The notes under the pieces: model-generated
Database searches by the model: none
Told to the model about the DNA's origin: nothing
Seen by the model: the letters and a program-made list of their open reading frames with translations, nothing else
Part shown: in pieces, positions 1,439-36,248 of the stretch
Position numbering within the stretch: position 1 is the first letter of the stretch
Layout: every line of letters starts with the position of its first letter
NCBI RefSeq assembly: GCF_018860635.1
Contig: NZ_JAHKPT010000021.1
Span: 94,674-158,673 of the forward strand
DNA length: 64,000 nucleotides
From: Aliiglaciecola lipolytica
Lineage (GTDB): Bacteria; Pseudomonadota; Gammaproteobacteria; Enterobacterales; Alteromonadaceae
Direction: 5' to 3'
Position numbers and translations under genes: made by a program

Positions 1439-2083
1439 ATGTCAAATACTGCACAAGACATAAATCCGCTAGATAAAATCAAAGCTGTTTATCTGGCCGC
1501 TGAAGATTTAAAAATTGCCGCATCAATTTTATATCAAGCTTATCATGATGATCCGCTGTTTTTAGATATATTCGATTCTGAGAAGGAAGGGTATGAATCC
1601 CGTTTAAGGGGCGCAATTAGAGAAGAGTTAAATGCCTTTTGGTCCGCTAAACAGCCAATGATTGGTCTTTTTGAAGATGAACGTTTATTGGCAGTAGCAT
1701 GTATGATTAAACCTGATAGTGCGTTCAACCCCGACCGATTTTGGCATTGGCGCTTAAAGATGTTGCTTACCGCTGGTTATATAGGCACCAAGCAAATGAT
1801 CGAAAAGGAACAGCGGGTAAGAGAGCGTATTCCCCATGAAAAATACCATATGTTGTCGTTTATTGGAGTGCATCCAGATCATCAGCACAGAGGTCTTGGA
1901 CACGTTTTAATGAGTGCGATTGATAGTATTGTGCTAGAAGAAGAAAAAAGTGAAGGTGTTGGGGTTTATGTCACTCTACCTAAATGTTTGTCATTCTTCT
2001 CCGACGGAAAATATGACCATATTGATGAACTAAAAGTCTCACGCATAACTGGGCAAATAATGTTTAGACCTCGGTCAGAGTAA
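1439..2083 (+). CDS. GNAT family N-acetyltransferase
   Basis: A 214-aa protein with the GNAT acetyl-CoA fold. The diagnostic motif A is at about residues 141-160: FIGVHPDHQHRGLGHVLM, where QHRGLG is the Q/R-x-x-G-x-G pyrophosphate-binding loop. The C-terminal strand GVGVYVTLPKCLSFF ... FFSDGK fits motif B of the family. The substrate is unknown; nothing in the neighbourhood suggests one. Translation starts at the ATG after GAAGAGAG. The gene is monocistronic, and the next feature downstream on this strand is the CsrB-like RNA. Confidence 0.85.
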   Translation: MSNTAQDINPLDKIKAVYLAAEDLKIAASILYQAYHDDPLFLDIFDSEKEGYESRLRGAIREELNAFWSAKQPMIGLFEDERLLAVACMIKPDSAFNPDRFWHWRLKMLLTAGYIGTKQMIEKEQRVRERIPHEKYHMLSFIGVHPDHQHRGLGHVLMSAIDSIVLEEEKSEGVGVYVTLPKCLSFFSDGKYDHIDELKVSRITGQIMFRPRSE

Positions 2084-2273: not shown

Positions 2274-2291
2274 TGTAAGATATTTCGTACA
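2274..2291. promoter_or_regulatory. GacA/UvrY-type upstream activating box
   Basis: TGTAAG-ATATTT-CGTACA, matching the GacA/UvrY/VarA upstream activating consensus TGTAAG-N6-CTTACA with one mismatch. Such boxes lie 100-200 bp upstream of csrB, rsmY and rsmZ start sites; this one lies about 185 bp upstream of the inferred RNA start at 2461. The position and spacing, together with the RNA, support activation of the RNA by a BarA-UvrY type two-component system encoded elsewhere. Confidence 0.62.
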
Positions 2292-2428: not shown

Positions 2429-2457
2429 TAGAAACTTTTAATTGCTTTATCTTATAC
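2429..2457 (+). promoter_or_regulatory. csrB: Putative promoter of the CsrB-type RNA
   Basis: A -10-like TTATAC (2452-2457) lies a few bases before the GTCACAGGGA that I take as the RNA 5' end. At 17-bp spacing the -35 position (2429-2434) reads TAGAAA, a poor match to TTGACA. A weak -35 fits an activator-dependent promoter driven from the upstream TGTAAG box. The exact start site is inferred. Confidence 0.4.
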
Positions 2458-2460
2458 CTC

Positions 2461-2817
2461 GTCACAGGGAAATACGACGGGTCAGGAAGACTTAAGGAAA
2501 GCCAGAAGGACACTTTCATTGGATGAAAGAAAATGGTCAGGATGAGCATTTAGTAAAGGACTACAAACTCAAGGATAGATAGGGAAGACGAAGGACAATC
2601 TTAAGGATGAGAAATGCTGTAAGTAAGGATGTGCAGCTAAATAAGGAATAAAGGAAAGGGACTCACTTAGGAAGAGTGACTCACTTAAGGATGAGCGAGA
2701 ATAGAGGGAAAGGGGCGTATACGGATGTTGACCGGGATGGTTTAATAGCGAAGGAAAGCTGAGAGGGATTCTCAAAATTCTGAAAGGTGTGTCTAATTTA
2801 TTAGACACACCTTTTTT
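2461..2817 (+). ncRNA. csrB: CsrB-type regulatory RNA (sequesters CsrA/RsmA)
   Basis: A non-coding RNA of about 355 nt. On this strand I count 22 GGA trinucleotides in 300 nt (first at 2468, last at 2766), many in the AGGA or AAGGAT context that CsrA binds. Several sit in loops of small stems: CTTTCAT-TGG-ATGAAAG at 2513-2529, CTCA-CTTAAGGA-TGAG at 2680-2695, GAGA-GGGAT-TCTC at 2761-2773. The 5' end GTCACAGGGA resembles the E. coli CsrB 5' end, and a strong intrinsic terminator closes it. Known members titrate the translational repressor CsrA and so control biofilm, motility and carbon storage. No ORF with a ribosome binding site covers it. The family call is strong; the 5' end is approximate. 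Confidence 0.88.
2784..2817. terminator. Intrinsic terminator of the CsrB-type RNA
   Basis: A perfect 13-bp stem, AAGGTGTGTCTAA (2784-2796) paired with TTAGACACACCTT (2801-2813), a 4-nt loop and then a T-rich tail on the plus strand. On the minus strand the stem starts with a matching A/T-rich edge, so it may also stop transcripts of the hybrid kinase gene, whose stop codon is at 2830. Confidence 0.9.
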
Positions 2818-2829
2818 ATTTGTTTAATG

Positions 2830-5800
2830 CTACTTTTCGATCCACTTGAGTATACCTTGCTCTAAATCTTCGATGATTATTGGTTTACTGATATATCCAT
2901 CCATTCCAGCATCAAAGCACTTTTCCTTATCTCCTTTCATTGCATTGGCGGTTAACGCGATAATCGGAATGTTCGGATCAAAATTTACACCTTGATATCC
3001 ACGTATTATTCTACTGGCTTCGTAGCCATCCATTATTGGCATCTGGCAATCCATTAGTACAATATCAAAAGGAGTCGTCGCTCGGCTCAACTGTTCAATT
3101 GCTTCCATACCGTTATTTGCTAACTCAGTAATACAGTCTAATTTTTTAAGCATTTCCTTTGCTACTGCTTGGTTAATCGCATTGTCTTCGACTAACAAAA
3201 TACGCGGCACTGCTTTTGATGGACTGGTCGCGTTGTGTCGGGTTATTAATTCAATTTGTTGTTTTCTTGTTTCTGATTTAATGAGTTTTTGATTACTAAT
3301 TTGGGTAATTGCAAAAAACAAATCGTCATTTTTAATGGGTTTATGAAAGTATGCATCAAAACCTATATTTTTAAACTTCTGAGCATCTCCTCGTCTTGCA
3401 CTTGCTGTCATTAAAATCATATTCAACGATGCAAACCTTTCATCACTTTTAATCGCTTTGCCTAATTCTGTGCCATTGATACCAGGCATATCCGCATCGA
3501 TAATTGCGATATCTATTTTGTCTCTAATTTCACAATGTTTACGCAGTGTTTTTAATGCTTCAGGAGAATTTTTGGCTTGCACAACCTTAATTTTTTCCGA
3601 TTCCAGAATGGATGACAAAACGTCTCGACTGGTTTGGTTATCATCCACAACCAGCACTTTCAATTGCGCTAGATTTGCTTTGGATAAATCGTATTTTTGC
3701 GTGTTATGCTTGTTTACAGCAGGCTCAAACTGAAGGGTAAACCAAAATTCTGAGCCTTTTTGCCATTCACTGTTAACCCCAATTTCGCCGTTCAATAACT
3801 CTACCAGTTCTTTGGCGATGGAAAGACCCAAACCCGTGCCACCAAATTTGCGCGTGGTTGAGGCGTCTAATTGACTAAACTTGTGGAACAGTTGTTGTTG
3901 TTTTTCTTTGGAAATACCCATTCCAGAATCTATCACACAAAAGATCAGTTTATTTTCACTGGTCAAATTAACTTTAATAACGATTTCACCTTGTTGGGTG
4001 AATTTGATTGCGTTACTGGTTAAGTTTGTGAGTATTTGCCGTATTCTGCCAGGATCACCTTGAATCCACCTTGGAACACTTGGGTGCATGGAAAATATCA
4101 GTTCCAAATGTTTGTCTTCTGCTCGAATTGAGAAACTCTCAATAAATTTATTCAGCATTTCATGCAGATCAAATTCTATATTTTCGATTTCTAGCTTACC
4201 GGCTTCGATTTTTGAAAAGTCTAAAATATCATTAATTAAGGTCAGCAAAATGTGACCACTACTTTGCGCCAACTCTGCATATTTTAACTGTTGTTCTGAC
4301 AACGGCGTATTTAGCAGAAGATCATTCATACCAATAATGCCATTTATGGGAGTTCGAATTTCGTGACTCATATTCGCTAAAAAGTCGCTTTTGGCCTGAC
4401 TGGCAACTTTTGCTTTTTCCTCTGCTTCTTTTAATTCCGTTATGTCTTGAAATGCGCCTCGTAAAATAACCTCACCTTTTTGGTTGTGTTCTCTAAACCC
4501 AAAAGACTTCACCCATATTTTTTTGTTATTTGCGGTGATAAACGGCAATTGAAAATCGAATGGGATGTTGTTAGTGGTTGCTTCGGTTAATGCGTCTTGT
4601 ACTTTTTGACGGTCTTCTGGCAGATAAAAATTAATCGCATTTTCAACATCAATTTTGCTACCGATGGGCAGTTCATGAATGCGATAGACTTCATCAGACC
4701 AATATATCTCGCCCGTTGTGAAATTCACTTCCCAAGCCCCTAATTTGGCTACTTTTCCAGTGGCCATCAATAACGAAGCACTGCGCTCTTTTTCTTCTTC
4801 AATGCGCTTAAGTTCAGTGATATCTCGCCCTATTAATAAGAAGCCTTCAACATCTTTGTCAGCATTCATCACTGGGGTTATCGTTAACTGAATTGGAATT
4901 AGCTTGCCACTCTTGCTTATAAATTGAGTTTCAAATTCGTCAGCAATCCCTTGTCTGGCGGAATAGGTTATTGACGCCATTCCTGACGGGATTTCTTTAC
5001 CTAGCTTGGTGCTGAGGTGTTTGGCATGAACTGCTAATGACTCTGATTTAAAGAACAACTCTGGGGTTAATAGACCAACGACCGAACTTCGATGATATTC
5101 AAGTGTCTTTTCTGCAAAGTTATTGTAAGTGATGATATTGCCCGATAAATTGGTGGACATAATGAGCAGATTGGCACTATTTAGAATAGCGTCCTGCATG
5201 TTACTGTAGTTTACGAGCTCGAGTTCTTGTTGTTTAGATTTTGTAATATCTGTGGCAACAACTATGATTCGAACGATTTTGTCGTTCTCAAATAGCGGTT
5301 TTATATTTGCCCGAAACCAAAGAGTTTGACCTTGTTTATTATAATGAATTAACTCGTAACTGTGGCCCTTGCCATTAGCGATTGCTTGTTTGATTTTAAG
5401 CACCGTTGAGGTGTCTGTTTGAGGACCAAACAAAAACTCTTGAGGGGATTTACCGACGATTTCCGCTAGGGTGAAGCCACTCAATTTGATAAACGCCGGA
5501 TTAACCCATTCGATTGTCATATCTGGGTTAAATATCATGATCGCGTTTTCGGATTCTTGCACAATGCTGGCTAAAAACTCATTTTCCGCCTTGCTTTCTA
5601 GTAGTTTTTGTTGGGTTTCATATTGCTCCGTTAAGTCAATATTGATACCCGTAATTTTAAGTGGGCTGTTGTCGCCTGTGCGTATAACCTGACCAAACGC
5701 TTGAATGTATTTTTCTTTTTCAGTTGCGGTTTTAATTCGAAATTCAGCTTCATATTTATTGTTTAATTTATTGGCTTGCTGAAATTCGTTGATCGCCATT

Positions 5801-6432
5801 TCTCTATCTTCAGGGTGGATAAATGAAAACCAATCTTGTATGTCAGTTGAGTAATTCTCTGGAGATACGTCGTACAATCGACACATCTGCTCGTCCCACA
5901 CCATTTGTTTAGTAGAAAAGTCATATTGCCAAACACCAATGCCCGACTGTTTCGCCACTTCATACCTTGCCAATAGATTTTTAACGATGGTTTGAGCGGA
6001 TAGCAGCTTTTTCGCAGGGCTGAAGGAAATGACCACACCTTGGAAATCATTGTTGGATAATTCATCGATTAAAACGGTGACATAACTAATGGCGAAAGTT
6101 GGGGTTGAAATAGCGATGGGATCGCCGTCATTTAATTCAAAGTGTAGGTTAAGTTCGTGGGGCGCATTTAACTGCTTAAATAATTCGACAAAAATAGCTC
6201 TGCTGTGATCTAAGGTGAAAAGCCCATCAACCGGATTGCCAATTATTGATGAGGTATCAACATCAAATAATCGCCGCGCCGCGTTGTTTAAATTGGCTAC
6301 TTGGCCGGTGGTATTGCAGACTATCATTGCAATGGAACTTTGCTCGAATAACGATTGAGCTACATCAAGTTTCCAATTATCTTTTTTTGTCACGTTCAAA
6401 TATCCTATAAGAGAATTCTCTACCCCTACCAT
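2830..6432 (-). CDS. Soluble hybrid sensor histidine kinase with five PAS domains and two receiver domains
   Basis: About 1200 residues. In order: five PAS-like domains (about residues 25-140, 157-272, 287-397, 412-540, 552-667), a HisKA dimerisation domain with H-box FLANMSHEIRTPINGIIGM (phospho-His about 690), a HATPase_c domain with N-box NLTSNAIKFT, VIDSGMGI and GGTGLGLSI, then two receiver domains, REC1 (LVVDDNQTS, acceptor in IIDADMPG) and REC2 (LVEDNAINQ, acceptor in LMDCQMPIMDG). I see no membrane segment, no HAMP and no C-terminal HPt domain, so it is a cytosolic hybrid kinase needing an external phosphotransfer partner. The start is uncertain: ATG at 6432 is used, but the frame is open to a TTG at 6546, and neither has a good ribosome binding site. 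It converges on the CsrB-type RNA and shares its terminator region. Confidence 0.88.
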   Translation of the reverse strand: MVGVENSLIGYLNVTKKDNWKLDVAQSLFEQSSIAMIVCNTTGQVANLNNAARRLFDVDTSSIIGNPVDGLFTLDHSRAIFVELFKQLNAPHELNLHFELNDGDPIAISTPTFAISYVTVLIDELSNNDFQGVVISFSPAKKLLSAQTIVKNLLARYEVAKQSGIGVWQYDFSTKQMVWDEQMCRLYDVSPENYSTDIQDWFSFIHPEDREMAINEFQQANKLNNKYEAEFRIKTATEKEKYIQAFGQVIRTGDNSPLKITGINIDLTEQYETQQKLLESKAENEFLASIVQESENAIMIFNPDMTIEWVNPAFIKLSGFTLAEIVGKSPQEFLFGPQTDTSTVLKIKQAIANGKGHSYELIHYNKQGQTLWFRANIKPLFENDKIVRIIVVATDITKSKQQELELVNYSNMQDAILNSANLLIMSTNLSGNIITYNNFAEKTLEYHRSSVVGLLTPELFFKSESLAVHAKHLSTKLGKEIPSGMASITYSARQGIADEFETQFISKSGKLIPIQLTITPVMNADKDVEGFLLIGRDITELKRIEEEKERSASLLMATGKVAKLGAWEVNFTTGEIYWSDEVYRIHELPIGSKIDVENAINFYLPEDRQKVQDALTEATTNNIPFDFQLPFITANNKKIWVKSFGFREHNQKGEVILRGAFQDITELKEAEEKAKVASQAKSDFLANMSHEIRTPINGIIGMNDLLLNTPLSEQQLKYAELAQSSGHILLTLINDILDFSKIEAGKLEIENIEFDLHEMLNKFIESFSIRAEDKHLELIFSMHPSVPRWIQGDPGRIRQILTNLTSNAIKFTQQGEIVIKVNLTSENKLIFCVIDSGMGISKEKQQQLFHKFSQLDASTTRKFGGTGLGLSIAKELVELLNGEIGVNSEWQKGSEFWFTLQFEPAVNKHNTQKYDLSKANLAQLKVLVVDDNQTSRDVLSSILESEKIKVVQAKNSPEALKTLRKHCEIRDKIDIAIIDADMPGINGTELGKAIKSDERFASLNMILMTASARRGDAQKFKNIGFDAYFHKPIKNDDLFFAITQISNQKLIKSETRKQQIELITRHNATSPSKAVPRILLVEDNAINQAVAKEMLKKLDCITELANNGMEAIEQLSRATTPFDIVLMDCQMPIMDGYEASRIIRGYQGVNFDPNIPIIALTANAMKGDKEKCFDAGMDGYISKPIIIEDLEQGILKWIEK

Positions 6433-6725
6433 TATAGATAAAGAATTCTTTTTTACGGTAAATACAATCAGTTTGTGTTTACCCTCTTTTACAACCAATC
6501 CAGATTTAACATTAGTGCAAAAGATCGTGTTATTGAGACCTGTCAATTTATTGAAAACAAATAATAATGACTAATCCATTTACAATACTCATATTGGCTT
6601 AAAGTTTGCCTTAAAAACACCTAAAGTTCGCAAACGGGCTAAAATTATTTAAATAAGTCTGAAAATCGCTAAGTTTGCGTCAATTGAGTGCAAAAAAATT
6701 CAACCTGAGAATAAAAAGGAGCAAA

Positions 6726-17866: not shown

Positions 17867-18952
17867 ATGTATGAAAATTATTATGGACTCTCGTCGAAGC
17901 CTTTCCAACTTACACCTGATCCTAGTTTCTTTTTTGCCAGTAAATGGCACAAAAGAGCTATGTCTTATCTTCAATATGGATTGTCGCAGGCGGAAGGATT
18001 TATCGTAATTACTGGTGATATAGGTACCGGTAAAACAACTATTGCTAATAGTCTTCTTGATAACATCGAAGATGATATTGTGGCTGCACAAATTGTGACG
18101 CCAAAGCTGTCGCCAGATGAATTAGTAAAAATGGTTGCTAGTAAATTTGAAGTCGATACGTTAAATAAAACCAAAGCTGACATTCTAAAAGACTTGGAAA
18201 AGTACTTATTTGATTTGCACAAGTTAGGCAAGCGAGCACTGTTGATTGTGGATGAGGCGCAAAACTTACCGTTGGAAACAATTGAAGAGTTGCGAATGCT
18301 GTCGAACTTTCAACAACAAGGTAAACCATTGCTACAGAGCTTTTTATTGGGGCAAGAAGAATTGCAACCGATTCTAAGAGCACCCAATATGGAGCAGTTT
18401 CGTCAGCGTATTGTTGCATCATGTCATCTTGCGCCTCTCAATGAACCCGAGTGCAGGGAATATATTGAGTACCGCTTAAAACATGCGGGTTTAGAAAATG
18501 ACAAACTGTTTGCAGACGGTGCCTTTGACAAAATATATCAATTTACCAACGGCGTTCCTCGCCGAATAAATACACTAATGGATCGAATTCTTTTATATGG
18601 ATTTTTAGAAGAGCTGACGTATTTAGATGAAAAGGCGGTTGATACCGTGACTGCAGAAGTGGCTGATGAAATGTTCCGTCCCGAAGAGGGGACAGGGGTA
18701 ACACCATTGCCTGCTGCAGGACAACCGCAGCCCAAAGCCCCCGAACCAAAGACTGACGGTGGGGCTGAGGTGATGTCTGAGTTGACACCTGATGGCAGAG
18801 TCAAAGATGTACAATATTACAAAACCATGTTGAATGAATTGACTGACGCATTAGATAACGCTATCAGCCATAAAATAAAATTGACTCGCTATATCGACAA
18901 TTTATTAAAGAAAAAATATAAAACTTATGTTCGCTTGAAATCGGATGACTAA
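17867..18952 (+). CDS. XrtA-associated AAA ATPase (TIGR03015 type)
   Basis: A 361-aa ExeA/GspA-like ATPase typical of exosortase A loci. The hallmark N-terminus YYGLSSKPFQLTPDPSFFF is present, then Walker A GDIGTGKTT (50-58), Walker B LLIVDEAQN (D129, E130) and an FRQR arginine region. The C-terminal 100 residues are Pro-rich and then coiled, without a membrane helix. Its exact job in polysaccharide export is unknown. ATG after AGGTGA. It is alone on the plus strand, while the rest of the export genes run toward it on the minus strand, so it is not in one operon with them. Confidence 0.92.
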   Translation: MYENYYGLSSKPFQLTPDPSFFFASKWHKRAMSYLQYGLSQAEGFIVITGDIGTGKTTIANSLLDNIEDDIVAAQIVTPKLSPDELVKMVASKFEVDTLNKTKADILKDLEKYLFDLHKLGKRALLIVDEAQNLPLETIEELRMLSNFQQQGKPLLQSFLLGQEELQPILRAPNMEQFRQRIVASCHLAPLNEPECREYIEYRLKHAGLENDKLFADGAFDKIYQFTNGVPRRINTLMDRILLYGFLEELTYLDEKAVDTVTAEVADEMFRPEEGTGVTPLPAAGQPQPKAPEPKTDGGAEVMSELTPDGRVKDVQYYKTMLNELTDALDNAISHKIKLTRYIDNLLKKKYKTYVRLKSDD

Positions 18953-24779: not shown

Positions 24780-26189
24780 ATGGCAGCGACCAACAAACAA
24801 AATAAAAGGTCCAATGCTCTTGTTCTCGCAGAAGCAGTGATCGTTTCTTATTCTGCGTACTTAGCAAACTTTTTAGTAGTGAGTATTCTAGATGTAGAAT
24901 CTCCAAGCATTTTAAAACTAGCGGCTAATATCTCTCTTATGACCTTTTTAGTGTTGGTTTCATCTCTCTCTGTGGGATTGTATGAAGCCAAATTAAGAGA
25001 AACCTTCCGTGGCATTATAAGACGAATCTTTGTTAGCTTAGCCCTAACTTATTTCGTTGTAGAAGTAATAACCAGTACCTTTATGGAAGAGCTGAGGATG
25101 CATCCTTACTTCCTGCCAGTCGCTGCTGGAGTAGTGATTCTATCTCTTGTCACATTCCGTTATTTTACCAATCGTTTAGGTCTACTTGGACTTGGACGTA
25201 CTCGAATCGTGGTAATTGGAGCCGGTGAAAGAGCTTCAATTATTGAAAAAAGAATGCGTAGAGATGTTGATAGGTTGGGATTCGAGTTATTAGGTTTTAT
25301 CCCTATCCCAGGAGACAATCGTGAGGACGGTATCCGTAACGAGCGATTAGTACACGTTAAAATCGATGATAATTTCCGTAATTATGTAATTGATAATGAA
25401 ATTGACGAAATTATTATTGCCTGCGACCAGCGAAGAGGTACCTTACCCATCGAAGTTTTATTTGATTGCAGGTTACGCGGTGTTGAGATTACCGATTTGC
25501 TTGATTTCATGGAACGGGAAACGGGCCAAATTGTGGTGAACTTGATGTATCCGAGTTGGGTGGTATATTCAAATGGATTTAACTCCCAAAACTATTTAAG
25601 AGATATTCTTGAATATGGTATCAATGCCTTTGTGGCGATTTTTGTGATGCTGTTTACCTGGCCTTTCATGTTGCTAACCGCCGTCATTATTTATCTTGAT
25701 GATGGTCGACGTACAGGAACCTCTGTTTTTTATAAGCAAGAGCGAGTGGGCTTAAATGGCAAGCTGTTTAAAATAATAAAGTTCCGCAGCATGCGCCCTG
25801 ACGCCGAAAAAGACGGTGCAAAATGGGCCTCACAAAATGATAGTAGGGTAACTCGTATTGGTGCTTTCATCCGGAAATATCGTATCGACGAATTACCGCA
25901 ATTAATTAATGTGCTGAAAGGCGAAATGGCATTTATTGGCCCTCGTCCAGAACGTCCGCAGTTTGTTGAACAATTAATAAGGGAAATTCCATATTACAAT
26001 CAACGCCATAACGTGAAGCCGGGACTGGCAGGTTGGGCACAACTCAATTATCCTTATGGCGCAAGTGTCGAAGATTCGATGGAAAAGTTAAAATTCGATC
26101 TTTATTACGTGAAACATCAAAGTTTATTGTTAGATATGCTTATTTTTATTCGAACAGTGGAAGTTGTATTGTTCGGAAAGGGACGATGA
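24780..26189 (+). CDS. XrtA-system initiating sugar transferase (TIGR03013 type)
   Basis: A 469-aa polyprenyl-phosphate hexose-1-phosphate transferase that starts repeat-unit synthesis on undecaprenyl phosphate. The N-terminal half has four membrane helices (VIVSYSAYLANFLVVSI to YFLPVAAGVVILSLVTFRYF) and a Rossmann-like domain (TRIVVIGAGERAS). After another helix (about 285-310) comes the catalytic bacterial sugar transferase domain: KIIKFRSMRPDAE, SRVTRIGAFIRKYRIDELPQ, FIGPRPERPQF, VKPGLAGWAQ. First gene of the long plus-strand operon; the deacetylase starts 1 bp after its stop. Confidence 0.95.
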   Translation: MAATNKQNKRSNALVLAEAVIVSYSAYLANFLVVSILDVESPSILKLAANISLMTFLVLVSSLSVGLYEAKLRETFRGIIRRIFVSLALTYFVVEVITSTFMEELRMHPYFLPVAAGVVILSLVTFRYFTNRLGLLGLGRTRIVVIGAGERASIIEKRMRRDVDRLGFELLGFIPIPGDNREDGIRNERLVHVKIDDNFRNYVIDNEIDEIIIACDQRRGTLPIEVLFDCRLRGVEITDLLDFMERETGQIVVNLMYPSWVVYSNGFNSQNYLRDILEYGINAFVAIFVMLFTWPFMLLTAVIIYLDDGRRTGTSVFYKQERVGLNGKLFKIIKFRSMRPDAEKDGAKWASQNDSRVTRIGAFIRKYRIDELPQLINVLKGEMAFIGPRPERPQFVEQLIREIPYYNQRHNVKPGLAGWAQLNYPYGASVEDSMEKLKFDLYYVKHQSLLLDMLIFIRTVEVVLFGKGR

Positions 26190-26190
26190 A

Positions 26191-27030
26191 GTGGTAAAAA
26201 ATACGGCGCTAAATGCTATGACAGTTGATGTTGAAGATTTTTTTCACGTTTCTGCATTCGACTCAATTATCAAGCCTGAAGACTGGGATCAATATAAACC
26301 CCGTGTTGACGCTAATACGCGCAGGTTGCTTGATGTTTTCGCTAAAGCCGATGTGAAGTCTACGTTTTTTGTTCTTGGATGGGTCGCAGAGCTTTATCCG
26401 CAACTGATTAAAGATATTCATGCCCAAGGCCATGAAATTGCTAGCCATGGTTACGCACATCGAAGAGCTTATCAGCAGAACCGTAAAGAACTCACTGCCG
26501 ACATTACCCGCTCAAAAAATCATTTAGAAGATTTAATTGGTGAGCCTGTTATCGGTTATCGGGCACCAAGTTTCTCTATTGGTTATGATAACGAATGGGC
26601 GTTTGAAGTGTTAGCAGAGTTGGGCTTTAAATATAGCTCTAGCACTTATCCGGTTAAACATGATTTGTACGGTACACCTGATTGGCCTAGGTTTGCTTAC
26701 CAACGACCAGAAAATATTATCGAAATTCCTATCCCTACGTTAAAGCTAATGGGCAAACAAATTCCTATTGGAGGTGGGGGCTATTTTCGATTATATCCGT
26801 ATAAAATGACTCGAATGTTAGTGAATCGCTATTTGAGTCAGGAAAAACAACCTTACTCTTTCTATTTTCATCCTTGGGAGATTGATGGTGCGCAGCCAAG
26901 ATTAACTAATGCCCCATTAAAATCGCGTTTTAGACATTATATCAATTTGGATAAAACCGAGGCAAAATTAGAAAGATTACTGGCAGACTTTAATTGGTCA
27001 ACGATGAAAGACGTGTATGGAGTAGCATAA
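26191..27030 (+). CDS. XrtA-system polysaccharide deacetylase (TIGR03006 type)
   Basis: A 279-aa NodB-fold deacetylase. The motifs are AMTVDVEDFFHVSAF (catalytic base and metal Asp), FVLGWVAELYP, GHEIASHGYAHR (metal His pair), GYRAPSFSI and FYFHPWEID. No signal peptide, so it probably acts at the cytoplasmic face or on lipid-linked intermediates. GTG start at 26191 with AAGGGA upstream, just after the preceding TGA at 26187-26189; the frame open upstream lies inside the previous gene. It directly abuts the FemAB gene. Confidence 0.93.
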   Translation: MVKNTALNAMTVDVEDFFHVSAFDSIIKPEDWDQYKPRVDANTRRLLDVFAKADVKSTFFVLGWVAELYPQLIKDIHAQGHEIASHGYAHRRAYQQNRKELTADITRSKNHLEDLIGEPVIGYRAPSFSIGYDNEWAFEVLAELGFKYSSSTYPVKHDLYGTPDWPRFAYQRPENIIEIPIPTLKLMGKQIPIGGGGYFRLYPYKMTRMLVNRYLSQEKQPYSFYFHPWEIDGAQPRLTNAPLKSRFRHYINLDKTEAKLERLLADFNWSTMKDVYGVA

Positions 27031-28077
27031 GTGACGGAAAACTACCAACTTTGTAAGTTAGGTGACGGTGCGCAAGAGTCGCAAAAATGGGATGATTTTG
27101 TAGATAGTATTGATACCGGCACTTTTTTCCATTTAACAGGTTGGAAACGAGTTATTGAGTCGGTTTACGGTCACTCCTGTCATTATATTTATGCAACCAT
27201 TGATAACACTATTGTCGGCGTTCTACCCTTAGTTGAACAAAAAAGTTTACTCTTTGGTCATGCGCTCATTTCCACGCCATTCTGTGTCTATGGCGGTGTT
27301 GCTTCAGACTCTGAAGAGGCCACATTATTTTTAGAAAAGCAGGCTATTGAACTCGCCCATAATCTTGGGGTGGATTATTTAGAAATGCGTTATCCATTTG
27401 CGCGCAATAATCCTGATTTAACAGAAAAATGCGCCCACTCCTCTTTTGGTTGGGAGCTCGCTGATACACCAGAAGCGATCTTAGCGGGTATCAAAAAGAA
27501 ACAAAGAGCCGTTGTTAGGCATTCTTTAAAAAATGATCTTAGTTTTCGTATCGAAGAGGATACTAAAACAGCCTACGATGTGTATTCTGAAAGTGTTCGC
27601 AACTTAGGGACGCCAGTATTTCCGAAAAAGTATTTCGCGGCATTAAAACAAGAGTTTGCTGAAAACTGTGACGTATTGACCGTAGAGAAAGACCATAAAG
27701 CAGTTTCTTCGGTGCTTAGTTTTTATTACAAAAATCAAGTCTTACCTTTTTATGGTGGAGGCTTGTTTGATGCCAGAGCACTGAAAAGTAATGACTTTAT
27801 GTATTACCAGTTGATGTGCCATGCGTTGGAAAATAAACAATGCAATTACTTTGATTTTGGTCGAAGTAAAGACGACTCAGGTGCGTTTAAGTACAAACGT
27901 ACCTGGGGTATGGAACCGGTTGCGTTGCACTATCAATTTCATTTGGTAAAAGCTGAAGCATTACCTAATTTAAGTCCAAATAATCCAAAGTATCAGTTCT
28001 TTATCAAAATGTGGCAAAAACTGCCTGTTTGGTTGAGTCGTCGCATTGGACCCTTTCTATCCAAATTTTTAGGATAG
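27031..28077 (+). CDS. XrtA-system FemAB-family protein (TIGR03019 type)
   Basis: A 348-aa double-GNAT-fold protein of the FemAB family found in exosortase A loci. Landmarks are GTFFHLTGWKRVIESVYGH at the N-terminus, GVLPLVEQKSLLFG, LISTPFCVYGGV, and C-terminal LPFYGGGLFDARALKSNDFMY with FDFGRSKDDSGAFKYKRTWGME. FemAB proteins transfer an aminoacyl group from tRNA; in EPS loci the acceptor is presumably an amino sugar, which would fit the deacetylase just upstream. Substrate is inference. GTG start directly after the previous stop. Confidence 0.92.
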   Translation: MTENYQLCKLGDGAQESQKWDDFVDSIDTGTFFHLTGWKRVIESVYGHSCHYIYATIDNTIVGVLPLVEQKSLLFGHALISTPFCVYGGVASDSEEATLFLEKQAIELAHNLGVDYLEMRYPFARNNPDLTEKCAHSSFGWELADTPEAILAGIKKKQRAVVRHSLKNDLSFRIEEDTKTAYDVYSESVRNLGTPVFPKKYFAALKQEFAENCDVLTVEKDHKAVSSVLSFYYKNQVLPFYGGGLFDARALKSNDFMYYQLMCHALENKQCNYFDFGRSKDDSGAFKYKRTWGMEPVALHYQFHLVKAEALPNLSPNNPKYQFFIKMWQKLPVWLSRRIGPFLSKFLG

Positions 28078-28083
28078 AAGCGA

Positions 28084-29277
28084 ATGAATAAGCCGCCGCT
28101 GCTTTTTTTGTGTCACCGGATTCCTTTTCCACCCAATAAAGGTGACAAAATTCGTTCGTTTAATATGCTCAAAGTATTGAGCGAACGATTTGATATTTAT
28201 TTAGGCAGTTTCGTGGATGATCCCTACGATTGGCAATATGCATCAAACTTGGATAAATACTGCAAGCAAGTCTTTCTCATTAATCAGAATAAAACCTGGT
28301 CCAAAATCAAAGGGTTAACTGCTTTTATTAGCGGTAAGTCAATTTCTGAACCCTATTACGCTAACTCTAAGATGCAACAATGGGTAGATAAAACGTTGCG
28401 CCAGCAACAGATTACACAAGTGTTCATCTACTCTTCGGTGATGGCTATGTTTACTTCATCCCATCAACAAAGGATTCATCAGGTTGTCGACTATGTGGAC
28501 GTTGATTCAGATAAATGGCGACAGTACGCAGACAACAAGACAGGCATCAGTCGTTGGGTTTATCGACGAGAGCATCAGAAATTAAAAAGATTTGAAAATC
28601 GAGTTTGCGAGCGTTCGCAGCATGCTTTATTTGTTTCTGATCCTGAAGCCGAGCTATTTAAACAACAATTGCCAACGCTTCAGCATGGCAAGGTACAAGG
28701 TTTGTTGAACGGTGTTGACGTGGATTACTTTTCACCTGATAGCGACATTGAAGCGGTAACCGAACAGGTGGATGTGGTATTCACTGGAGCAATGGATTAT
28801 TGGGCAAATGTCGATGCGGTGATATGGTTTGTCAATCACGTTTGGCCTAAAATCAGAACGCTACACCCAAATGCGAATTTTTACGTGGTTGGAGGCAATC
28901 CAACTACGCAAATTAAATCGTTAAACAATACTAATGGTATTGTGGTTACCGGCAGAGTGAAAGATGTTCGACCCTTTATACGCAGCGCCAAAGTATCTGT
29001 TGCTCCGTTGCAAATCGCCAGAGGGATTCAGAACAAAGTGTTAGAGGCTTTATCTATGGCCAAGCCAGTAGTGGCAACAAGTATGGCAATAGAAGGGATT
29101 GACGCTAAAAACGAACATATCAGAGTGACTGATGATGCAGAGCAATTTTGTTCAGCGGTTTGTCATTATTTGGATACTCCTGTAGAAGTACCCGAAAATC
29201 GTCAGTGGATTATGGAAAATTTACAGTGGACTGCCACTATGAGCAAGTTAGCTGGATTATTTAAGGTTGAATTATGA
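28084..29277 (+). CDS. XrtA-system glycosyltransferase, family 4 (TIGR03087 type)
   Basis: A 397-aa GT-B glycosyltransferase. The N-terminus LLFLCHRIPFPPNKGDKIRS is the signature of this exosortase-linked family. The donor-binding half has VVFTGAMDYWANVDAV, YVVGGNP, VTGRVKDVRPFI and the conserved ARGIQNKVLEALSMAKPVVAT, which replaces the usual EGF...E loop. It adds one sugar of the repeat unit at the cytoplasmic membrane face. It overlaps the exosortase gene by 4 bp (ATGA). Confidence 0.93.
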   Translation: MNKPPLLFLCHRIPFPPNKGDKIRSFNMLKVLSERFDIYLGSFVDDPYDWQYASNLDKYCKQVFLINQNKTWSKIKGLTAFISGKSISEPYYANSKMQQWVDKTLRQQQITQVFIYSSVMAMFTSSHQQRIHQVVDYVDVDSDKWRQYADNKTGISRWVYRREHQKLKRFENRVCERSQHALFVSDPEAELFKQQLPTLQHGKVQGLLNGVDVDYFSPDSDIEAVTEQVDVVFTGAMDYWANVDAVIWFVNHVWPKIRTLHPNANFYVVGGNPTTQIKSLNNTNGIVVTGRVKDVRPFIRSAKVSVAPLQIARGIQNKVLEALSMAKPVVATSMAIEGIDAKNEHIRVTDDAEQFCSAVCHYLDTPVEVPENRQWIMENLQWTATMSKLAGLFKVEL

Positions 29278-30728
29278 CATTTTGGAAAAGTAGTATCTTC
29301 AAATATTTAATCGCGATATTTATTGTTTGGGGAGCTGTTTTCTTTGACAGTATTTCGTCAACAGCCGCCATATGGATTCGTTCAGAAACCTTCACCCATT
29401 GTTTTATTATTTTACCTATCTGTATTTACCTGATTAAACTTAAATGGACTAAATTAAATAACGCCACACTTCAACCTTCCTATATATCGTTAATTTTTGT
29501 AGTCGGCACTATTTTTGTTTGGCTATTTGGCAGCATGGCGCAAGTTTTAGTAATAGAGCAGTTAGCAAGCTTTGCTATGTTACCTATGATGATTTGGTGC
29601 GTGATGGGCAATCAGGTCGCGCGTATCCTGCTATTTACATCGTTCTTCTGGCTATTCAGCGTTCCTGCAGGTGAGTTTTTGATTCCCCAGTTACAAGAGT
29701 TAACCGCTGATATTACTGTTTTTGCGATCCAATTGACCGGTATTCCAGTATTCCGCGAAGGACTCTATATCGCTATTCCAGGAGGTCTATTTGAAGTGGC
29801 GGTAGCCTGTTCGGGGATTCGATATTTAATCGCTTCGTTTACTCTAGGTACGTTGTTTGCGTATTTGAATTATAACGGTCTTAAGAAGCGTCTGATTTTT
29901 ATCCTGTTCTCAATCTTTTTACCATTACTGGCCAATGGAATAAGAGCCTACGGCATAGTGATGATCGCTCATTTGTCGGACATGAAATATGCTACAGGGG
30001 TCGACCACCTTATTTATGGTTGGTTATTTTTTGGTTTGGTTATTCTGATTATGTTTACTGTTGGGGGGAGATGGGCTGATCCGCTTCCGAAAACTGAAAA
30101 ACTAGAAAATGAAGCTGGACCAGATTATCCCGTTTCTTCGATAACCAAACCTGTAGTTGCGTTGGTATTCATACTCGGAGTAAGCATAGGTTATAAATCA
30201 GCTTTCGAGAATCCAGTCAGTCCTGTTAACCCAGATTTTGCCGCAAGCTTTAATCTCGATGAGACGTCCAACACTGCAACTTGGTTGCCGATTTTTCATA
30301 ATCCAACCAGTGTTTATCGTGGCACCAATGGTGACGTTGAATTCTTCATTGCGTATTACAATGCGAATATTCAGGGACAAGAATTGATTAACGGACGCAA
30401 TAAACTGTATAACATCGAAAAATGGTCAATTGTGTCGGAAGATAGAAACCCAACTTATCGCTCGATGCAAATAATTGATAATTATGGGAATAAACGTTTA
30501 TTAAGTTATACCTATGTCACTCCATGGCGGGTGACACACAAATCCTTAGAGATTAAATTGGTACAAGCCATTCAGGCGCTGTTTGGTCAGGCTCAAAATG
30601 GCTACTTGATTATGTTGTCAGTTCCTGATGACAAGAATGAAAAAACCAAACAAGCGCTAGAGAATATGTCGCAGCAAATTTTTAATGATGAATTGCAATC
30701 ATTACTGAATGAAAGCAAGACTGAGTGA
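29274..30728 (+). CDS. xrtA: Exosortase A fused to an EpsI domain
   Basis: A 484-aa membrane protein. Residues 1 to about 270 form the exosortase core with about eight helices and the complete catalytic triad: Cys179 in VAVACSGIRYL, Arg224 in NGIRAYGIV and His245 in VDHLIYGW. The cysteine protease/transpeptidase processes PEP-CTERM sorting signals at the inner membrane. After a further helix (about 292-308, PVVALVFILGVSIGY) comes a periplasmic EpsI-like domain (about 325-475, YRGTNGDVEFFIAYYNANIQGQ...NRLLSYTY-type block), usual for XrtA of EPS loci. No PEP-CTERM protein is encoded in this window, so its substrates must be elsewhere. Confidence 0.95.
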   Translation: MTFWKSSIFKYLIAIFIVWGAVFFDSISSTAAIWIRSETFTHCFIILPICIYLIKLKWTKLNNATLQPSYISLIFVVGTIFVWLFGSMAQVLVIEQLASFAMLPMMIWCVMGNQVARILLFTSFFWLFSVPAGEFLIPQLQELTADITVFAIQLTGIPVFREGLYIAIPGGLFEVAVACSGIRYLIASFTLGTLFAYLNYNGLKKRLIFILFSIFLPLLANGIRAYGIVMIAHLSDMKYATGVDHLIYGWLFFGLVILIMFTVGGRWADPLPKTEKLENEAGPDYPVSSITKPVVALVFILGVSIGYKSAFENPVSPVNPDFAASFNLDETSNTATWLPIFHNPTSVYRGTNGDVEFFIAYYNANIQGQELINGRNKLYNIEKWSIVSEDRNPTYRSMQIIDNYGNKRLLSYTYVTPWRVTHKSLEIKLVQAIQALFGQAQNGYLIMLSVPDDKNEKTKQALENMSQQIFNDELQSLLNESKTE

Positions 30729-30773
30729 AGACAATTCTAGCTAAATTGAGATTGAGTAGGGAATAACATCGAC

Positions 30774-31916
30774 ATGGATTTCAAAAAGATTCACATTATG
30801 CATATCATTTACCGGTTTGACACCGGTGGATTAGAGAATGGTGTGGTCAATCTGATAAATCGTTTAGACTCTCAAAAGTACCAACATACAATTGTTACTT
30901 TGAAAGGTTATTCCGAGCTTTTTTGTCAACGTATTCAAACTCAAAACGTCGAATTTTTTGATTTAGCAAAAAAAGATGGTAACGACATAAGTATCTTTTT
31001 TAAATTGCGTAAATTATTAAAAAAGCTCAACCCAGATATTCTGCACACTCGTAATACTGCTACTATCGAAAATCAGCTGGTAGGATGGTGGTGCAGGGTG
31101 CCATACCGTATTCATGGTGAACACGGTTGGGATGTCAATGATATGCATGGGCAAAACAAAAAATATCAAATGCTTAGGCGCTTTATGAAAACCTATATTC
31201 ATAAGTATGTTGCGTTATCTACTGAAGCCTTTGATTATTTGCGCGATACGATTGGTGTTTATACTGATGACATCCGACATATTTGTAATGGTGTCGATGT
31301 CGATAAATTTACTCCTCAAAATTCTGACCTCAGCTTATTTCCTGAACATTTCGCTACCGAAAACATGCTTGTTTTTGGCACTGTAGGTCGTTTAGCCGAA
31401 GTTAAAAATCAACCCTTTTTACTCGAAGCATTCATCGCGCTTGTTGGTCAATTTCCTGAACATAAAGAGCGTCTCCGTTTAGTCATTGTTGGTGATGGCG
31501 TGCTGATGGAAAAAATGTTGGCTAGGACACAACAAGCAGATTTGTCATCGCAAGTTTGGTTTGCTGGCAATCGTTCCGATGTGGCGCAACTAATGAACTG
31601 TATGGATGTTTTTGTATTGCCTTCCTTAGCTGAGGGGATTTCGAACACTATTCTTGAAGCATCGGCAAGCGGCTTACCGGTGATTGCCACCAATGTTGGT
31701 GGAAATCCTGAATTGATTGCAGCAGATTTAAAAAAGTCACATCTAGTTGAAGTTAATGATATTAACGCACTAGTCTCGGCGATGAGTCAATATGTTAGTT
31801 CACCTGAACTTAAGCATAAAAATGGCCTTATCGTAAGAAACCATTGCGTGGCAAACTTTAGTATAGATACAATGGTTGGGAAATATAATGAGCTTTATCA
31901 AGCCTTTAATGGTTGA
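30774..31916 (+). CDS. XrtA-system glycosyltransferase, family 4 (TIGR03088 type)
   Basis: A 380-aa GT-B enzyme. The N-terminal signature is IMHIIYRFDTGGLENGVVNLI. The C-terminal half has FGTVGRLAEVKNQPFLLEAF, IVGDGVLMEKM, VWFAGNRSDVAQLM and the EX7E-type donor loop PSLAEGISNTILEASASGLPVIA. It acts on a lipid-linked intermediate in the cytoplasm. A 45-bp gap after xrtA and a 10-bp gap before the amidotransferase keep it within the same operon. Confidence 0.93.
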   Translation: MDFKKIHIMHIIYRFDTGGLENGVVNLINRLDSQKYQHTIVTLKGYSELFCQRIQTQNVEFFDLAKKDGNDISIFFKLRKLLKKLNPDILHTRNTATIENQLVGWWCRVPYRIHGEHGWDVNDMHGQNKKYQMLRRFMKTYIHKYVALSTEAFDYLRDTIGVYTDDIRHICNGVDVDKFTPQNSDLSLFPEHFATENMLVFGTVGRLAEVKNQPFLLEAFIALVGQFPEHKERLRLVIVGDGVLMEKMLARTQQADLSSQVWFAGNRSDVAQLMNCMDVFVLPSLAEGISNTILEASASGLPVIATNVGGNPELIAADLKKSHLVEVNDINALVSAMSQYVSSPELKHKNGLIVRNHCVANFSIDTMVGKYNELYQAFNG

Positions 31917-31926
31917 GGATTAACGA

Positions 31927-33825
31927 ATGTGCGGAATAGCTGGTATTTTTCACCTGTCAGATCAAACCCGAGTTGATGCTGATTTGATTGCAAAGATGAA
32001 TGATCGACAAATTCATCGAGGACCTGATGCAGGTGATTACTTTTTTGACCCAGGCGTGGCGCTTGCTCACAGACGTCTATCTATTATCGATTTAGAAGGC
32101 AGCCCTCAACCGATGTTAAGCGCTGATAAGCGTGCTTGTGTTGTCTTTAACGGCGAAATATACAACTTTAAAGAATTGCATAAAGAGCTTTCTGCTAAAG
32201 GTTACACATTCAATACCCATGGTGACACTGAAACTATCCTTAATGCTTGGTTAGAGTGGGGGGAAGAATGTGTACATAAATTAAGAGGGATGTTTGCCTT
32301 TGCGATTTGGGATAGACAAAAAGAGTGTTTGTTTATTGCTCGTGACCGTTTAGGCATTAAACCTTTTTTCTACAGTCTATTACCTAGCGGTGAGTTTATT
32401 TTCGGCTCTGAATTAAAAGTCATCACAGCTCACCCAGCTTTTAATCGTGATCTTAGAAATACCACTATTGAAGACTACTTCAGCCTAGGTTATGTACCAG
32501 AGCCTCACACTATTTATCAAAACGCCTTTAAGTTGTCACCTGGTCACACCTTAATGTTGCACAAAGGTGATAGAGGGTTACCAGAATCTAAAGAGTATTG
32601 GGATGTACCTGTAAACTATGACCATCCGCTAGATCAGAAGGAAATCGATGAGCAACTTGTAGAGCGTCTCAAAGAAGCGGTCGATATCCGTATGGTTGCT
32701 GATGTGCCTTTAGGTTCATTTTTATCCGGAGGCGTAGACTCAAGTGCCGTTGTCGCTATGATGTCGCAGTTGCAAACGGAACCTGTGAATACCTGTGCAA
32801 TCGGTTTTGATGTAAAAGAGTTTAACGAAACAGAATATGCACAATCAGTCGCAGATCGATATAAAACCAATCATCGTGTTGAAGTGGTTGGCCAAGATGA
32901 TTTTGATTTAGTCGATCAATTAGCGCATTTATACGATGAACCCTATGCAGATAGTTCAGCAATTCCTACATTTAGAGTCTGCGAATTAGCGAGGAAGCAC
33001 GTTACCGTAGCGCTTTCTGGTGATGGTGGCGATGAGTTGTTTGCAGGCTATAGTCGCTACAGAATGCATCAGGGGGAAGAAAAAATTCGTAACTTATTGC
33101 CGCTGGGAATACGCAAACCTATCTTTGGTCCACTGGGCAAGTTATATCCTAAAGCCGATTGGGCACCGAAGTTTCTGCGAGCAAAAACAACCTTTCAATC
33201 TATGGCTATGGATACCGTCGAAGGGTATCACAATACTATGAGTATTCTGCGCACAGGTGATCGAGCTAAATTATTTTCTGAAGACTATAAACAAAGTCTT
33301 AATGGTTACACTTCGCTGGAAATCTTCCAAAAATACGGTGATAAAGTTAAACATTTGGATGAAACCAAAATAGCCCAGTATATCGACATGAAAACCTATT
33401 TGGTTGGCGATATTTTAACTAAAGTCGACAGGGCTTCCATGGCACATTCTCTTGAAGTTCGAGTGCCAATTATCGATCACAAATTTGTTGAATGGGCGTT
33501 TAACGTGCCTACCAATAAAAACCTTGCTAACGGGGTCGGAAAACTCTCATTCAAGAAGGCATTAGAACCGCATCTTCCCCATGATGTTCTGTATCGCAAA
33601 AAAATGGGGTTTGCCGTGCCTTTAGCAAATTGGTTTAGGGGGCCTCTGAAAGAACGATTGTATGAAGGGGTTTTATCTAAACAGATGACTGAATCAGGTT
33701 ATTTCAACAAGTCACAATTACAACGATTGATTAATGATCATATTTCTGGGCGACGAGACAACAGCGCGTCATTGTGGACATTAATGATGTTTGAGTCATT
33801 TTTACGTCAACAAAAGGCGCAGTAA
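31927..33825 (+). CDS. XrtA-system amidotransferase (asparagine synthase-like, TIGR03108 type)
   Basis: A 632-aa glutamine-dependent amidotransferase. The N-terminal class II glutaminase domain is intact with nucleophile Cys2 (MCGIAGIFHL) and RGPDAGDYF. The synthetase domain has the PP-loop SGGVDSSA (267-274), DEPYADSSAIPTF, LSGDGGDELFAGYSRY and the C-terminal RKKMGFAVPL. By homology it should amidate a carboxyl group, plausibly a uronic acid of the polymer; the true substrate is unknown. The next gene starts 3 bp after its stop. Compare the degenerate paralogue at 42211. Confidence 0.94.
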   Translation: MCGIAGIFHLSDQTRVDADLIAKMNDRQIHRGPDAGDYFFDPGVALAHRRLSIIDLEGSPQPMLSADKRACVVFNGEIYNFKELHKELSAKGYTFNTHGDTETILNAWLEWGEECVHKLRGMFAFAIWDRQKECLFIARDRLGIKPFFYSLLPSGEFIFGSELKVITAHPAFNRDLRNTTIEDYFSLGYVPEPHTIYQNAFKLSPGHTLMLHKGDRGLPESKEYWDVPVNYDHPLDQKEIDEQLVERLKEAVDIRMVADVPLGSFLSGGVDSSAVVAMMSQLQTEPVNTCAIGFDVKEFNETEYAQSVADRYKTNHRVEVVGQDDFDLVDQLAHLYDEPYADSSAIPTFRVCELARKHVTVALSGDGGDELFAGYSRYRMHQGEEKIRNLLPLGIRKPIFGPLGKLYPKADWAPKFLRAKTTFQSMAMDTVEGYHNTMSILRTGDRAKLFSEDYKQSLNGYTSLEIFQKYGDKVKHLDETKIAQYIDMKTYLVGDILTKVDRASMAHSLEVRVPIIDHKFVEWAFNVPTNKNLANGVGKLSFKKALEPHLPHDVLYRKKMGFAVPLANWFRGPLKERLYEGVLSKQMTESGYFNKSQLQRLINDHISGRRDNSASLWTLMMFESFLRQQKAQ

Positions 33826-33828
33826 GCC

Positions 33829-35034
33829 GTGAAAATAATGCACATTTTAGATCATTCCATCCCGTTGCACAGTGGTTATACTTTTCGTACTCGCTCTATT
33901 TTGAATCAGCAGCGTGCTCGAGGGTGGGAAACTTGTCATGTTACTAGCGCTAAACAAGGGATATGTGAAGCTGAAATTGAAGATGTGGATGGTTTAAGGT
34001 TTTATCGAACTAAACCACCTACAGGGTTAAGCAGCAAACTCCCCGTGTTAAATCAATTATCCTTAGTGAACCCTCTGCGAGATCGTATTTTAGAAGCGAT
34101 TGAAATTGAGAAGCCGGATATTTTGCATGCTCATTCACCGGCCTTAAATGGTTTGGCAGCTATCAAAGCAGCCAACAAAACCGGACTACCTTTAGTCTAT
34201 GAGATTCGTGCTTTTTGGGAAGATGCAGCGGTTGATCACGGTACTTGTAAAGAAGGCGACTTACGTTATCGTTTGACACAAAAAATGGAAACTCACGTGG
34301 TTAATAAAGCGAATGCTGTGACCACTATTTGCCAAGGTCTGCGTCAAGATCTGCTTGCTCGGGGCATTGCAGACAGTAAGATTACCGTTATACCCAATGC
34401 AGTCAATATTGAACAATTCAATATTATCACTGAGCGTAATCAAGCATTAGAAAAACAGTACAATTTAAATAACAAAGTGGTGCTGGGATTCCTTGGATCC
34501 TTTTACGGTTACGAAGGATTAGACTTAATCGTTGCCGCTTTGCCACAAATTCTTAAAACTATTCCTAATGCTGTATTTTTGTTAGTGGGTGGCGGACCTC
34601 AAGAACAGAATTTAAAAAATCAGATTAAACAACTTGGTTTGCAAGAGCATGTGATTATGCCTGGCCGCGTTCCTCATTCTGAAGTAGATAAATATTATAG
34701 TTTGGTTGATTTACTTGTTTATCCACGAAAACCCATGCGTTTAACTGAATTGGTGACGCCGCTTAAACCGTTGGAAGCTATGGCGCAAGGGAAACTTGTT
34801 CTTGCTTCTGATGTGGGGGGGCACAAAGAATTGATTGAAGACGGCAAAACCGGTTGGTTGTTTGACAGTGGCAATATTGATGCGCTGGCCAATACAGCTA
34901 TAAAGGTTTTATCAAATCGTGATTCTTGGCCTGCAATGGTTGAGAATGGACGTAATTTTGTGATGCAAATTAGGAACTGGAAAAACTCAGTTGCCAATTA
35001 TCAGTCTATTTACGAAAATTTACTGAGTAAGTGA
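33829..35034 (+). CDS. XrtA-system glycosyltransferase, family 4 (TIGR04063 type)
   Basis: A 401-aa GT-B enzyme with the family N-terminus MHILDHSIPLHSGYTFRTRS. The donor half shows VLGFLGSFYGYEGLDLI, LVGGGPQE, IMPGRVPHSEVDKYYSLVDLLVYPRKP and a conserved TPLKPLEAMAQGKLVLASDVGG loop. GTG start at 33829. The stop overlaps the next gene (GTGA at 35031-35034), so the two glycosyltransferases are translationally coupled. Confidence 0.93.
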   Translation: MKIMHILDHSIPLHSGYTFRTRSILNQQRARGWETCHVTSAKQGICEAEIEDVDGLRFYRTKPPTGLSSKLPVLNQLSLVNPLRDRILEAIEIEKPDILHAHSPALNGLAAIKAANKTGLPLVYEIRAFWEDAAVDHGTCKEGDLRYRLTQKMETHVVNKANAVTTICQGLRQDLLARGIADSKITVIPNAVNIEQFNIITERNQALEKQYNLNNKVVLGFLGSFYGYEGLDLIVAALPQILKTIPNAVFLLVGGGPQEQNLKNQIKQLGLQEHVIMPGRVPHSEVDKYYSLVDLLVYPRKPMRLTELVTPLKPLEAMAQGKLVLASDVGGHKELIEDGKTGWLFDSGNIDALANTAIKVLSNRDSWPAMVENGRNFVMQIRNWKNSVANYQSIYENLLSK

Positions 35035-36245
35035 CAGTGAAACGCCCAAGAATTGTTGTCTTGAGTTCTTTATTCCCTAACTCAGTGCGCAAACAGTCTG
35101 GCTTGTTTGTGCGTGAAAGAATGTTTCGCGTGGCAGAGTATGCCGACATTGAAGTGATAAGCCCTGTTCCATGGTTTCCTGGACAAGGTTTGATTCGGTT
35201 TTTCAAACCTAATTATCGCCCTATGCCTGAAAAAAAGGAAGTTCAGCAGGGGATCACCGTTCATTTCCCTCGATTCTTATCTATTCCGAAGTTTTTTCGA
35301 AAGTTAGATGGGGCGATGATGGCCCGAGCGGCTTACAAAGTACTCAAAAAATTAGAGCAACAACACAAAATTGATATTATCGATAGCCACTTTACTTATC
35401 CTGATGGATTAGCTGCGACTAAACTTGCTAAGCGCATGAATAAAAAAGTCACTATCACATTGCGCGGAACAGAATTAACCCATAGCAAAGATCCTGATAA
35501 GTTGAAGTTAATGCTGCAAGCATGGCAAGACGCTGATCACATGATTTGTGTCGCCGACTCACTAAAACAGCTTGCCGTATCTCTAGGTGCTGATGGGAAT
35601 AAATTTACGGTTGTAGGGAATGGGGTTGATACCCATAAGTTTTCCGCAATGAGTCCGCATAAAGCGCGACAATTTCTGGCAATCGAAGAAGATGCTAAAG
35701 TGCTTATTACGGTAGGCGGTTTGGTCAAACGAAAAGGCTTTCATCGGGTTATTGAATGTCTTCCTGAATTATTAAAAATCTATCCTAATTTGGTTTATCT
35801 CATTGTCGGTGGAGCGAGTGCCGAAGGTAATATTGAAGCTGAATTGCGTGCACAGGTCAAAAGGTTAGGGGTGGAGAGTCAGGTTAAGTTTTTAGGTTCA
35901 CTACCTCCCGATAAGCTCAGTAATCCTCTATCATCTGCAGATCTCTTTGTGCTTTCGACTGCCAATGAAGGTTGGGCCAATGTTATTCTAGAGAGTATGG
36001 CCTGCGGTACGCCTGTTATCGCCAGTGACGTTGGCGGTAATAGTGAAGTCATAAATAGTGACGATGTTGGCGAGATAGTGCCTTTTGATGATCATTTGGC
36101 GCTGCTGACATCACTCAAAAAAGGCTTAAACAAAGAGTGGGATCGACAAGCTATCGTTGAATATGCACAGCAAAATCATTGGGATACCAGAATGGCTAAA
36201 ATTATGGATATTTATAACAATTTATTGAGCCCAAAGGAGCACTAG
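35031..36245 (+). CDS. Glycosyltransferase, family 4, EPS-associated
   Basis: A 404-aa GT-B enzyme. Features are VVLSSLFPNSVRKQSGLFVRER at the N-terminus, IDSHFTYPDGLAATKLAKR, VTLRGTELTH-type acceptor loop, ITVGGLVKRKGFHRVIE, LIVGGAS and the EX7E motif in ANEGWANVILESMACGTPVIAS. It probably adds a sugar in the same repeat-unit pathway. GTG start overlapping the upstream stop; a second in-frame GTG is at 35037. Confidence 0.92.
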   Translation: MTVKRPRIVVLSSLFPNSVRKQSGLFVRERMFRVAEYADIEVISPVPWFPGQGLIRFFKPNYRPMPEKKEVQQGITVHFPRFLSIPKFFRKLDGAMMARAAYKVLKKLEQQHKIDIIDSHFTYPDGLAATKLAKRMNKKVTITLRGTELTHSKDPDKLKLMLQAWQDADHMICVADSLKQLAVSLGADGNKFTVVGNGVDTHKFSAMSPHKARQFLAIEEDAKVLITVGGLVKRKGFHRVIECLPELLKIYPNLVYLIVGGASAEGNIEAELRAQVKRLGVESQVKFLGSLPPDKLSNPLSSADLFVLSTANEGWANVILESMACGTPVIASDVGGNSEVINSDDVGEIVPFDDHLALLTSLKKGLNKEWDRQAIVEYAQQNHWDTRMAKIMDIYNNLLSPKEH

Positions 36246-36248
36246 TTT

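Follow-up and report, generated by a model that had tools for sequence, protein, structure and literature searches.

A probable CsrB-type regulatory RNA of Aliiglaciecola lipolytica with relatives across the Alteromonadaceae

Positions 2461-2817 of the 64,000-nt stretch of Aliiglaciecola lipolytica DNA analysed here (the window) form a purine-rich gap between an acetyltransferase gene and a convergent histidine kinase gene, and raise the question of whether this gap encodes a regulatory RNA of the CsrB type. The + strand of these 357 nt contains 22 GGA trinucleotides, the number given in an initial annotation of the region, and no TCC, an accumulation of GGA on one strand that is a mark of the CsrB-type class. 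Mononucleotide shuffles of the same sequence have a mean of 11.2 GGA and reached 22 in none of 5,000 cases, and dinucleotide shuffles, which preserve the GG and GA counts, have a mean of 15.7 and reached 22 in 28 of 2,000. On both strands of the 64-kb window the mean is 3.4 GGA per 357 nt, and the highest count on either strand, with starts at 2001-2999 set aside, is 12. The bias was also said to have no protein gene behind it, and the sole open reading frame of at least 50 aa that overlaps the RNA is indeed a 79-aa frame at 2569-2808 on the minus strand, presumably spurious. The RNA is predicted, from its conserved 5′ end, to start at ~2462 (GTCACAGGGA...). The features of the locus are listed in Table 1.

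Table 1. Predicted features of the CsrB-type RNA locus and its flanking genes, in positions of the window
Feature	Position	Strand	Basis or remark
GNAT-type acetyltransferase gene	1439..2083	+	Upstream neighbour, frequently conserved; context, outside the RNA
GacA/UvrY-type 18-bp inverted repeat, TGTAAG-N6-CTTACA, 1 mismatch	2274..2291	+	
Presumed -10 region	2446..2461	+	Adjoins the RNA start; assigned by eye
Probable CsrB-type RNA, 22 GGA motifs	2462..2817	+	GGA counts, fold, alignments, covariation
Most conserved 5′ segment	2462..2499	+	Two short GTC..GAC pairings, the second around AGGA
3′ domain, model R1	2593..2780	+	Seven helices, GGA inside each in this sequence
Intrinsic terminator	2782..2815	+	14 perfect pairs, 15 with a G-T pair
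PAS hybrid histidine kinase gene	2830..6546	-	Convergent neighbour; context

In the local fold of 2462-2781, from which the terminator was left out, GGA is present in eight of the nine hairpin loops. Shuffles of this segment have a mean of 2.9 GGA-bearing loops, with eight or more in none of 200, so the placement in apical loops that the initial annotation described is well founded. The stability of the fold is ordinary, with 34 of 200 shuffles at least as stable, and it is therefore the placing of the GGA motifs, not stability, that is the unusual feature. When the terminator is included, the fold energy has a z-score of -2.57 and 1 of 100 shuffles was as good. A Rho-independent terminator is a further mark of the class, and the one present here is strong, as had been annotated, although its stem consists of 14 perfect base pairs (15 with a G-T pair) rather than 13.

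Blastn returned matches in 17 of 60 genomes, the source genome included. One match (L018) was rejected, being short, located upstream and without a GGA-dense stretch; the remaining 16 loci, again including the locus described here, each have 18 to 25 GGA in 300 nt and a box-like site upstream with 0 to 3 mismatches. A degenerate pattern for the 5′ end, built from these relatives, identified 38 loci in named genomes, which partly overlap the 60 used for blastn. They belong to Alteromonas, Paraglaciecola, Aliiglaciecola, Marisediminitalea, Neptunicella, Aestuariibacter and further Alteromonadaceae, together with one MAG labelled only Gammaproteobacteria. In an alignment of 20 sequences (A3), 25 columns of the 5′ segment are invariant. 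RNAalifold, run on the full set of 20, did not return helix 4, and a hand-written structure of seven helices was counted instead on an alignment of 16 of them (A2), from which four sequences with long insertions had been dropped. In this alignment 93.9% of cells are paired, versus 31-48% in slid control structures, a comparison that favours the counted structure because it was drawn from the same sequences. Both sides have changed in 19 of the 31 pairs, and there are 68 double-changed cells versus 22.6 in shuffles, a control that related sequences inflate, while further pair types are at the level of the shuffles (39 versus 37.1; 129 of 500). Presentation of GGA in the loops of a conserved fold, as in the CsrB-type class, is thus found in this family.

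At E ≤0.01, model R1 has matches in 25 of the 60 genomes and in 103 of 295 genomes of the family, the source genome being included in both counts; under the strict filters applied, which may have lost some, 35 and 192 genomes, respectively, gave no R1 match. In the other families of the order, R1 gave weak matches (E 1e-7 to 0.0025). Three weak R1 matches in a genome of the same order (L104, L111 and L112 in G043) lie on one strand with a spacing of ~700-800 nt, and are possibly tandem CsrB-like genes.

The 18-bp box, which as a GacA/UvrY-type element is also typical of the class, is centred 178 nt upstream of the likely 5′ end of the RNA. By the same measure the box of Escherichia coli csrB is 182 nt upstream, and the available text of a published study places the centre of the UvrY repeat there at -183/-182 (PMC4682653). 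When 260 nt upstream of the 5′ end are scanned, the best box at each of the 38 named loci is located 174-181 nt upstream; it has 0 to 2 mismatches at 37 loci and 3 at the remaining one. The pattern used to find these loci makes them share a 5′ end by construction, but not a box. In a set of 56 distinct 5′ ends, 54 have a box with 0 to 2 mismatches, 53 of these at 174-181 nt, a count biased towards that result as only ~140-190 nt upstream were scanned and each locus was represented by whichever 5′ motif had the best box. Duplicates, loci without the RNA, L103-L112 and loci from several other searches had been excluded from this set beforehand, and ten loci were dropped because they did not have the 5′ motif in its exact form, sufficient sequence or 12 GGA. 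The source genome has six box-like sites with at most one mismatch, and GGA density sets one apart, with 21 per 300 nt beside the site described here and at most 8 per 300 nt beside the other five. The box-like pattern is not enriched genome-wide, with 6 forward matches versus 10 in a reversed control. No sigma-70-like promoter was scored on the + strand of 2100-2900.

A GNAT relative is present upstream in 26 of the 38 named loci, ~4 kb off in one, and at 15 of the 16 loci of the blastn set. It was not found in 12 of the 38, although in three of these the upstream sequence is shorter than 900 nt. Only loci of the same genus, and not every one of them, have the convergent histidine kinase. Such a variable context argues for a free-standing RNA gene. 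Because the RNA follows the GNAT gene on the same strand and a GNAT relative is so often retained, the transcript might instead be an untranslated extension of the acetyltransferase mRNA, or otherwise the leader of the downstream gene. We consider this very improbable, since the downstream gene is convergent, loci exist with no GNAT relative found, and the 5′ end keeps a near-fixed spacing to the box across genera.

Further from the RNA, the proteins scanned at 24780-37607 of the window include a sugar transferase, glycosyltransferases, an exosortase and an AMP-binding enzyme, and from its sequence this region appears to be an exopolysaccharide/exosortase-type cluster. It is 22 kb away, or 15 kb if the AAA ATPase at 17867 is counted (seven proteins scanned). 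The initial annotation took this proximity as a route for biofilm control. Csr RNAs act in trans, so proximity is no evidence of such control and adds nothing to the interpretation of the RNA.

The genome also has the protein partners, CsrA and UvrY/GacA, that accompany RNAs of the CsrB-type class. A single match to CsrA aligns over 59 residues, with few changes, to the solved CsrA structure 1y00, which we take to be that of E. coli. The UvrY/SirA/GacA equivalog scores 347.6 bits (cut-off 280), and this UvrY orthologue is 61% identical to E. coli UvrY and adjoins uvrC, as it does in E. coli. The best BarA-like kinase (L077:382-3489) scores 602.1 bits against a BarA cut-off of 890 and has a 7TMR-DISM sensor and HisKA, HATPase, receiver and Hpt domains; the sensor and the score below cut-off suggest that the input signal may differ. 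AAGGA, the form taken by 11 of the 22 motifs of the RNA, resembles Shine-Dalgarno sequences, and the RNA could conceivably titrate some other GGA-binding or ribosome-linked factor rather than CsrA. A sponge for CsrA is, however, better suited to GGA motifs in hairpin loops, to a UvrY-type box and to a CsrA that barely differs from the solved one, and a target other than CsrA seems to us just as improbable as an extended mRNA.

Covariance models, to which the initial annotation had looked for confirmation, gave weak support. The CsrC model RF00084 scores 25.1 bits on the RNA (gathering 61; E 1.4e-05 in a search of 651 nt) and the CsrB model RF00018 scores 13.6 bits (gathering 71), and Rfam has no match at the gathering level in the 64-kb window. 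Searched over the source genome at E ≤10, RF00018 gave one match inside this RNA (12.7 bits, E 0.53); the same search in controls gave matches in 8 of 14 genomes, in one of them above the cut-off, so scores this low mean little. The RNA is not a threshold member of RF00018 or RF00084. A functionless purine-rich spacer or decayed gene would fit the lack of a gathering-level match and an interior with the 79-aa minus-strand frame as its only open reading frame of at least 50 aa, and is nevertheless the least probable alternative, scarcely credible for an RNA that is conserved and covaries across genera.

With stricter filters, R1 has one match in the source genome and one in a genome of the same species, which suggests a single copy within the reach of these searches, although they might overlook a second RNA that has diverged and lacks the box. 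A pattern of three AGGA at fixed spacing gave no matches, not even to this RNA, and is uninformative on copies.

We conclude that 2462-2817 very probably encodes a CsrB-type regulatory RNA that serves as a sponge for CsrA. The CsrB/RsmZ-type identity first proposed for it is supported by its conservation in the Alteromonadaceae, by GGA hairpins that covary, by a GacA/UvrY-type box spaced as at csrB and by the presence of csrA and uvrY in the genome. Computation established the GGA motifs, a fold that is conserved and covaries, a terminator, the box with its nearly constant spacing, the one csrA match and the UvrY orthologue. By analogy with known Csr/Rsm systems, the phosphorylated UvrY/GacA regulator would bind the 18-bp box and switch on transcription from ~2462 to the terminator at 2815. 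The resulting RNA of ~355 nt would present ~22 GGA motifs, many within small hairpin loops, and would bind several CsrA dimers together, so freeing CsrA-controlled mRNAs; regulated targets are presumed on the same analogy. A likely Csr sponge RNA of Aliiglaciecola is thereby identified, and R1 provides a working model for its relatives, the RNA in this genome being one that the Rfam thresholds miss.

Across the family these RNAs differ considerably in predicted length. A terminator was called at 51 of the 56 loci, and the predicted ends give a shortest RNA of 248 nt with 14 GGA (L099) and a longest of 711 nt with 46 GGA (L051), the highest GGA count being 48 in a predicted RNA of 631-641 nt (L123). 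A length of 923 nt at L059 was discarded, the terminator there lying beyond the GGA-dense region. In genus g24, five of the ten loci read have RNAs of 600-641 nt with 42-48 GGA (L010, L123, L124, L129 and L133); among the remaining five are shorter RNAs, ambiguous cases and loci without the 5′ motif. Together with L051, the five long ones have predicted RNAs of ~600-710 nt and 42-48 GGA, about double the number in E. coli. All six keep the 5′ end and box spacing of the family, and in several relatives R1 matches two or three times, often at adjacent positions, as expected for longer RNAs. It is possible, if somewhat doubtful, that in the CsrB lineage of the Alteromonadaceae segments with GGA hairpins are gained and lost between a fixed promoter and 5′ end and a conserved 3′ domain, from ~250 nt with 14 GGA to ~630-710 nt with 46-48 GGA, that this changes the capacity of the sponge, and that the three Aln1 RNAs of Alteromonas macleodii might represent different 5′ ends of a single long RNA of this sort. 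The loci constitute a natural series of CsrB-type RNAs with a shared start and promoter spacing and a several-fold range of predicted CsrA-binding motifs, which could allow titration capacity to be compared directly.

Among known systems, Aln1a-c of A. macleodii Te101 come from the same bacterial family as the RNA described here. The available text of that report describes them as CsrB-C-like, very highly expressed RNAs in a strain with a CsrA homologue, with A(N)GGA motifs in single-stranded parts; it gives three RNAs, with three start sites, within a gap of 404 bp (PMC5864184). They are CsrB-like, as is the RNA here, and differ from it in being reported as three. The two are likely orthologous, although none of the genomes searched was identified as that of Te101. 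At L124, a 93-aa minus-strand frame (L124:1140-1421) overlaps the long RNA; annotation of this frame as a gene would narrow the apparent gap and, speculatively, might explain the 404-bp gap at Aln1. The published account of three RNAs in Alteromonas merits re-examination. RNAs of this kind, and their occurrence in the Alteromonadaceae, are already known, and the present locus is a new member; nothing on a small RNA in Aliiglaciecola was found in the open-licence literature. Csr RNAs were reportedly predicted by Kulkarni in 2006, and an earlier computational prediction of such an RNA in Alteromonadaceae may exist. The present analysis adds a promoter layout and a fold that appear to be family-wide, what is probably a single copy within the reach of the searches, and a predicted length range of ~250-710 nt with 14-48 GGA.

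Pf1, Pf2 and Pf3 of Pseudoalteromonas fuliginea are likewise CsrB-type RNAs. In the available text of the reports on them, Pf1 has 21 GGA and a putative GacA box, resembles E. coli CsrB little in sequence, and is reported to act on CsrA-controlled glycogen synthesis, and no significant matches to Pf1 and Pf2 outside Pseudoalteromonas are reported (PMC9927453, PMC11882849). That strain has three such RNAs, whereas one was found here.

Compared with CsrB and CsrC of E. coli, the RNA is sub-threshold to both Rfam models; its gene neighbours are not those of csrB, and an IHF consensus was not found between box and RNA start. In size and motif count it is about equal to E. coli CsrB (369 nt, 22 GGA), which by the same method has GGA in 9 of 12 hairpin loops versus 8 of 9 here. 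The first bases of the two RNAs are similar, and both have a UvrY inverted repeat at nearly the same distance upstream, 182 nt in E. coli versus 178 nt here.
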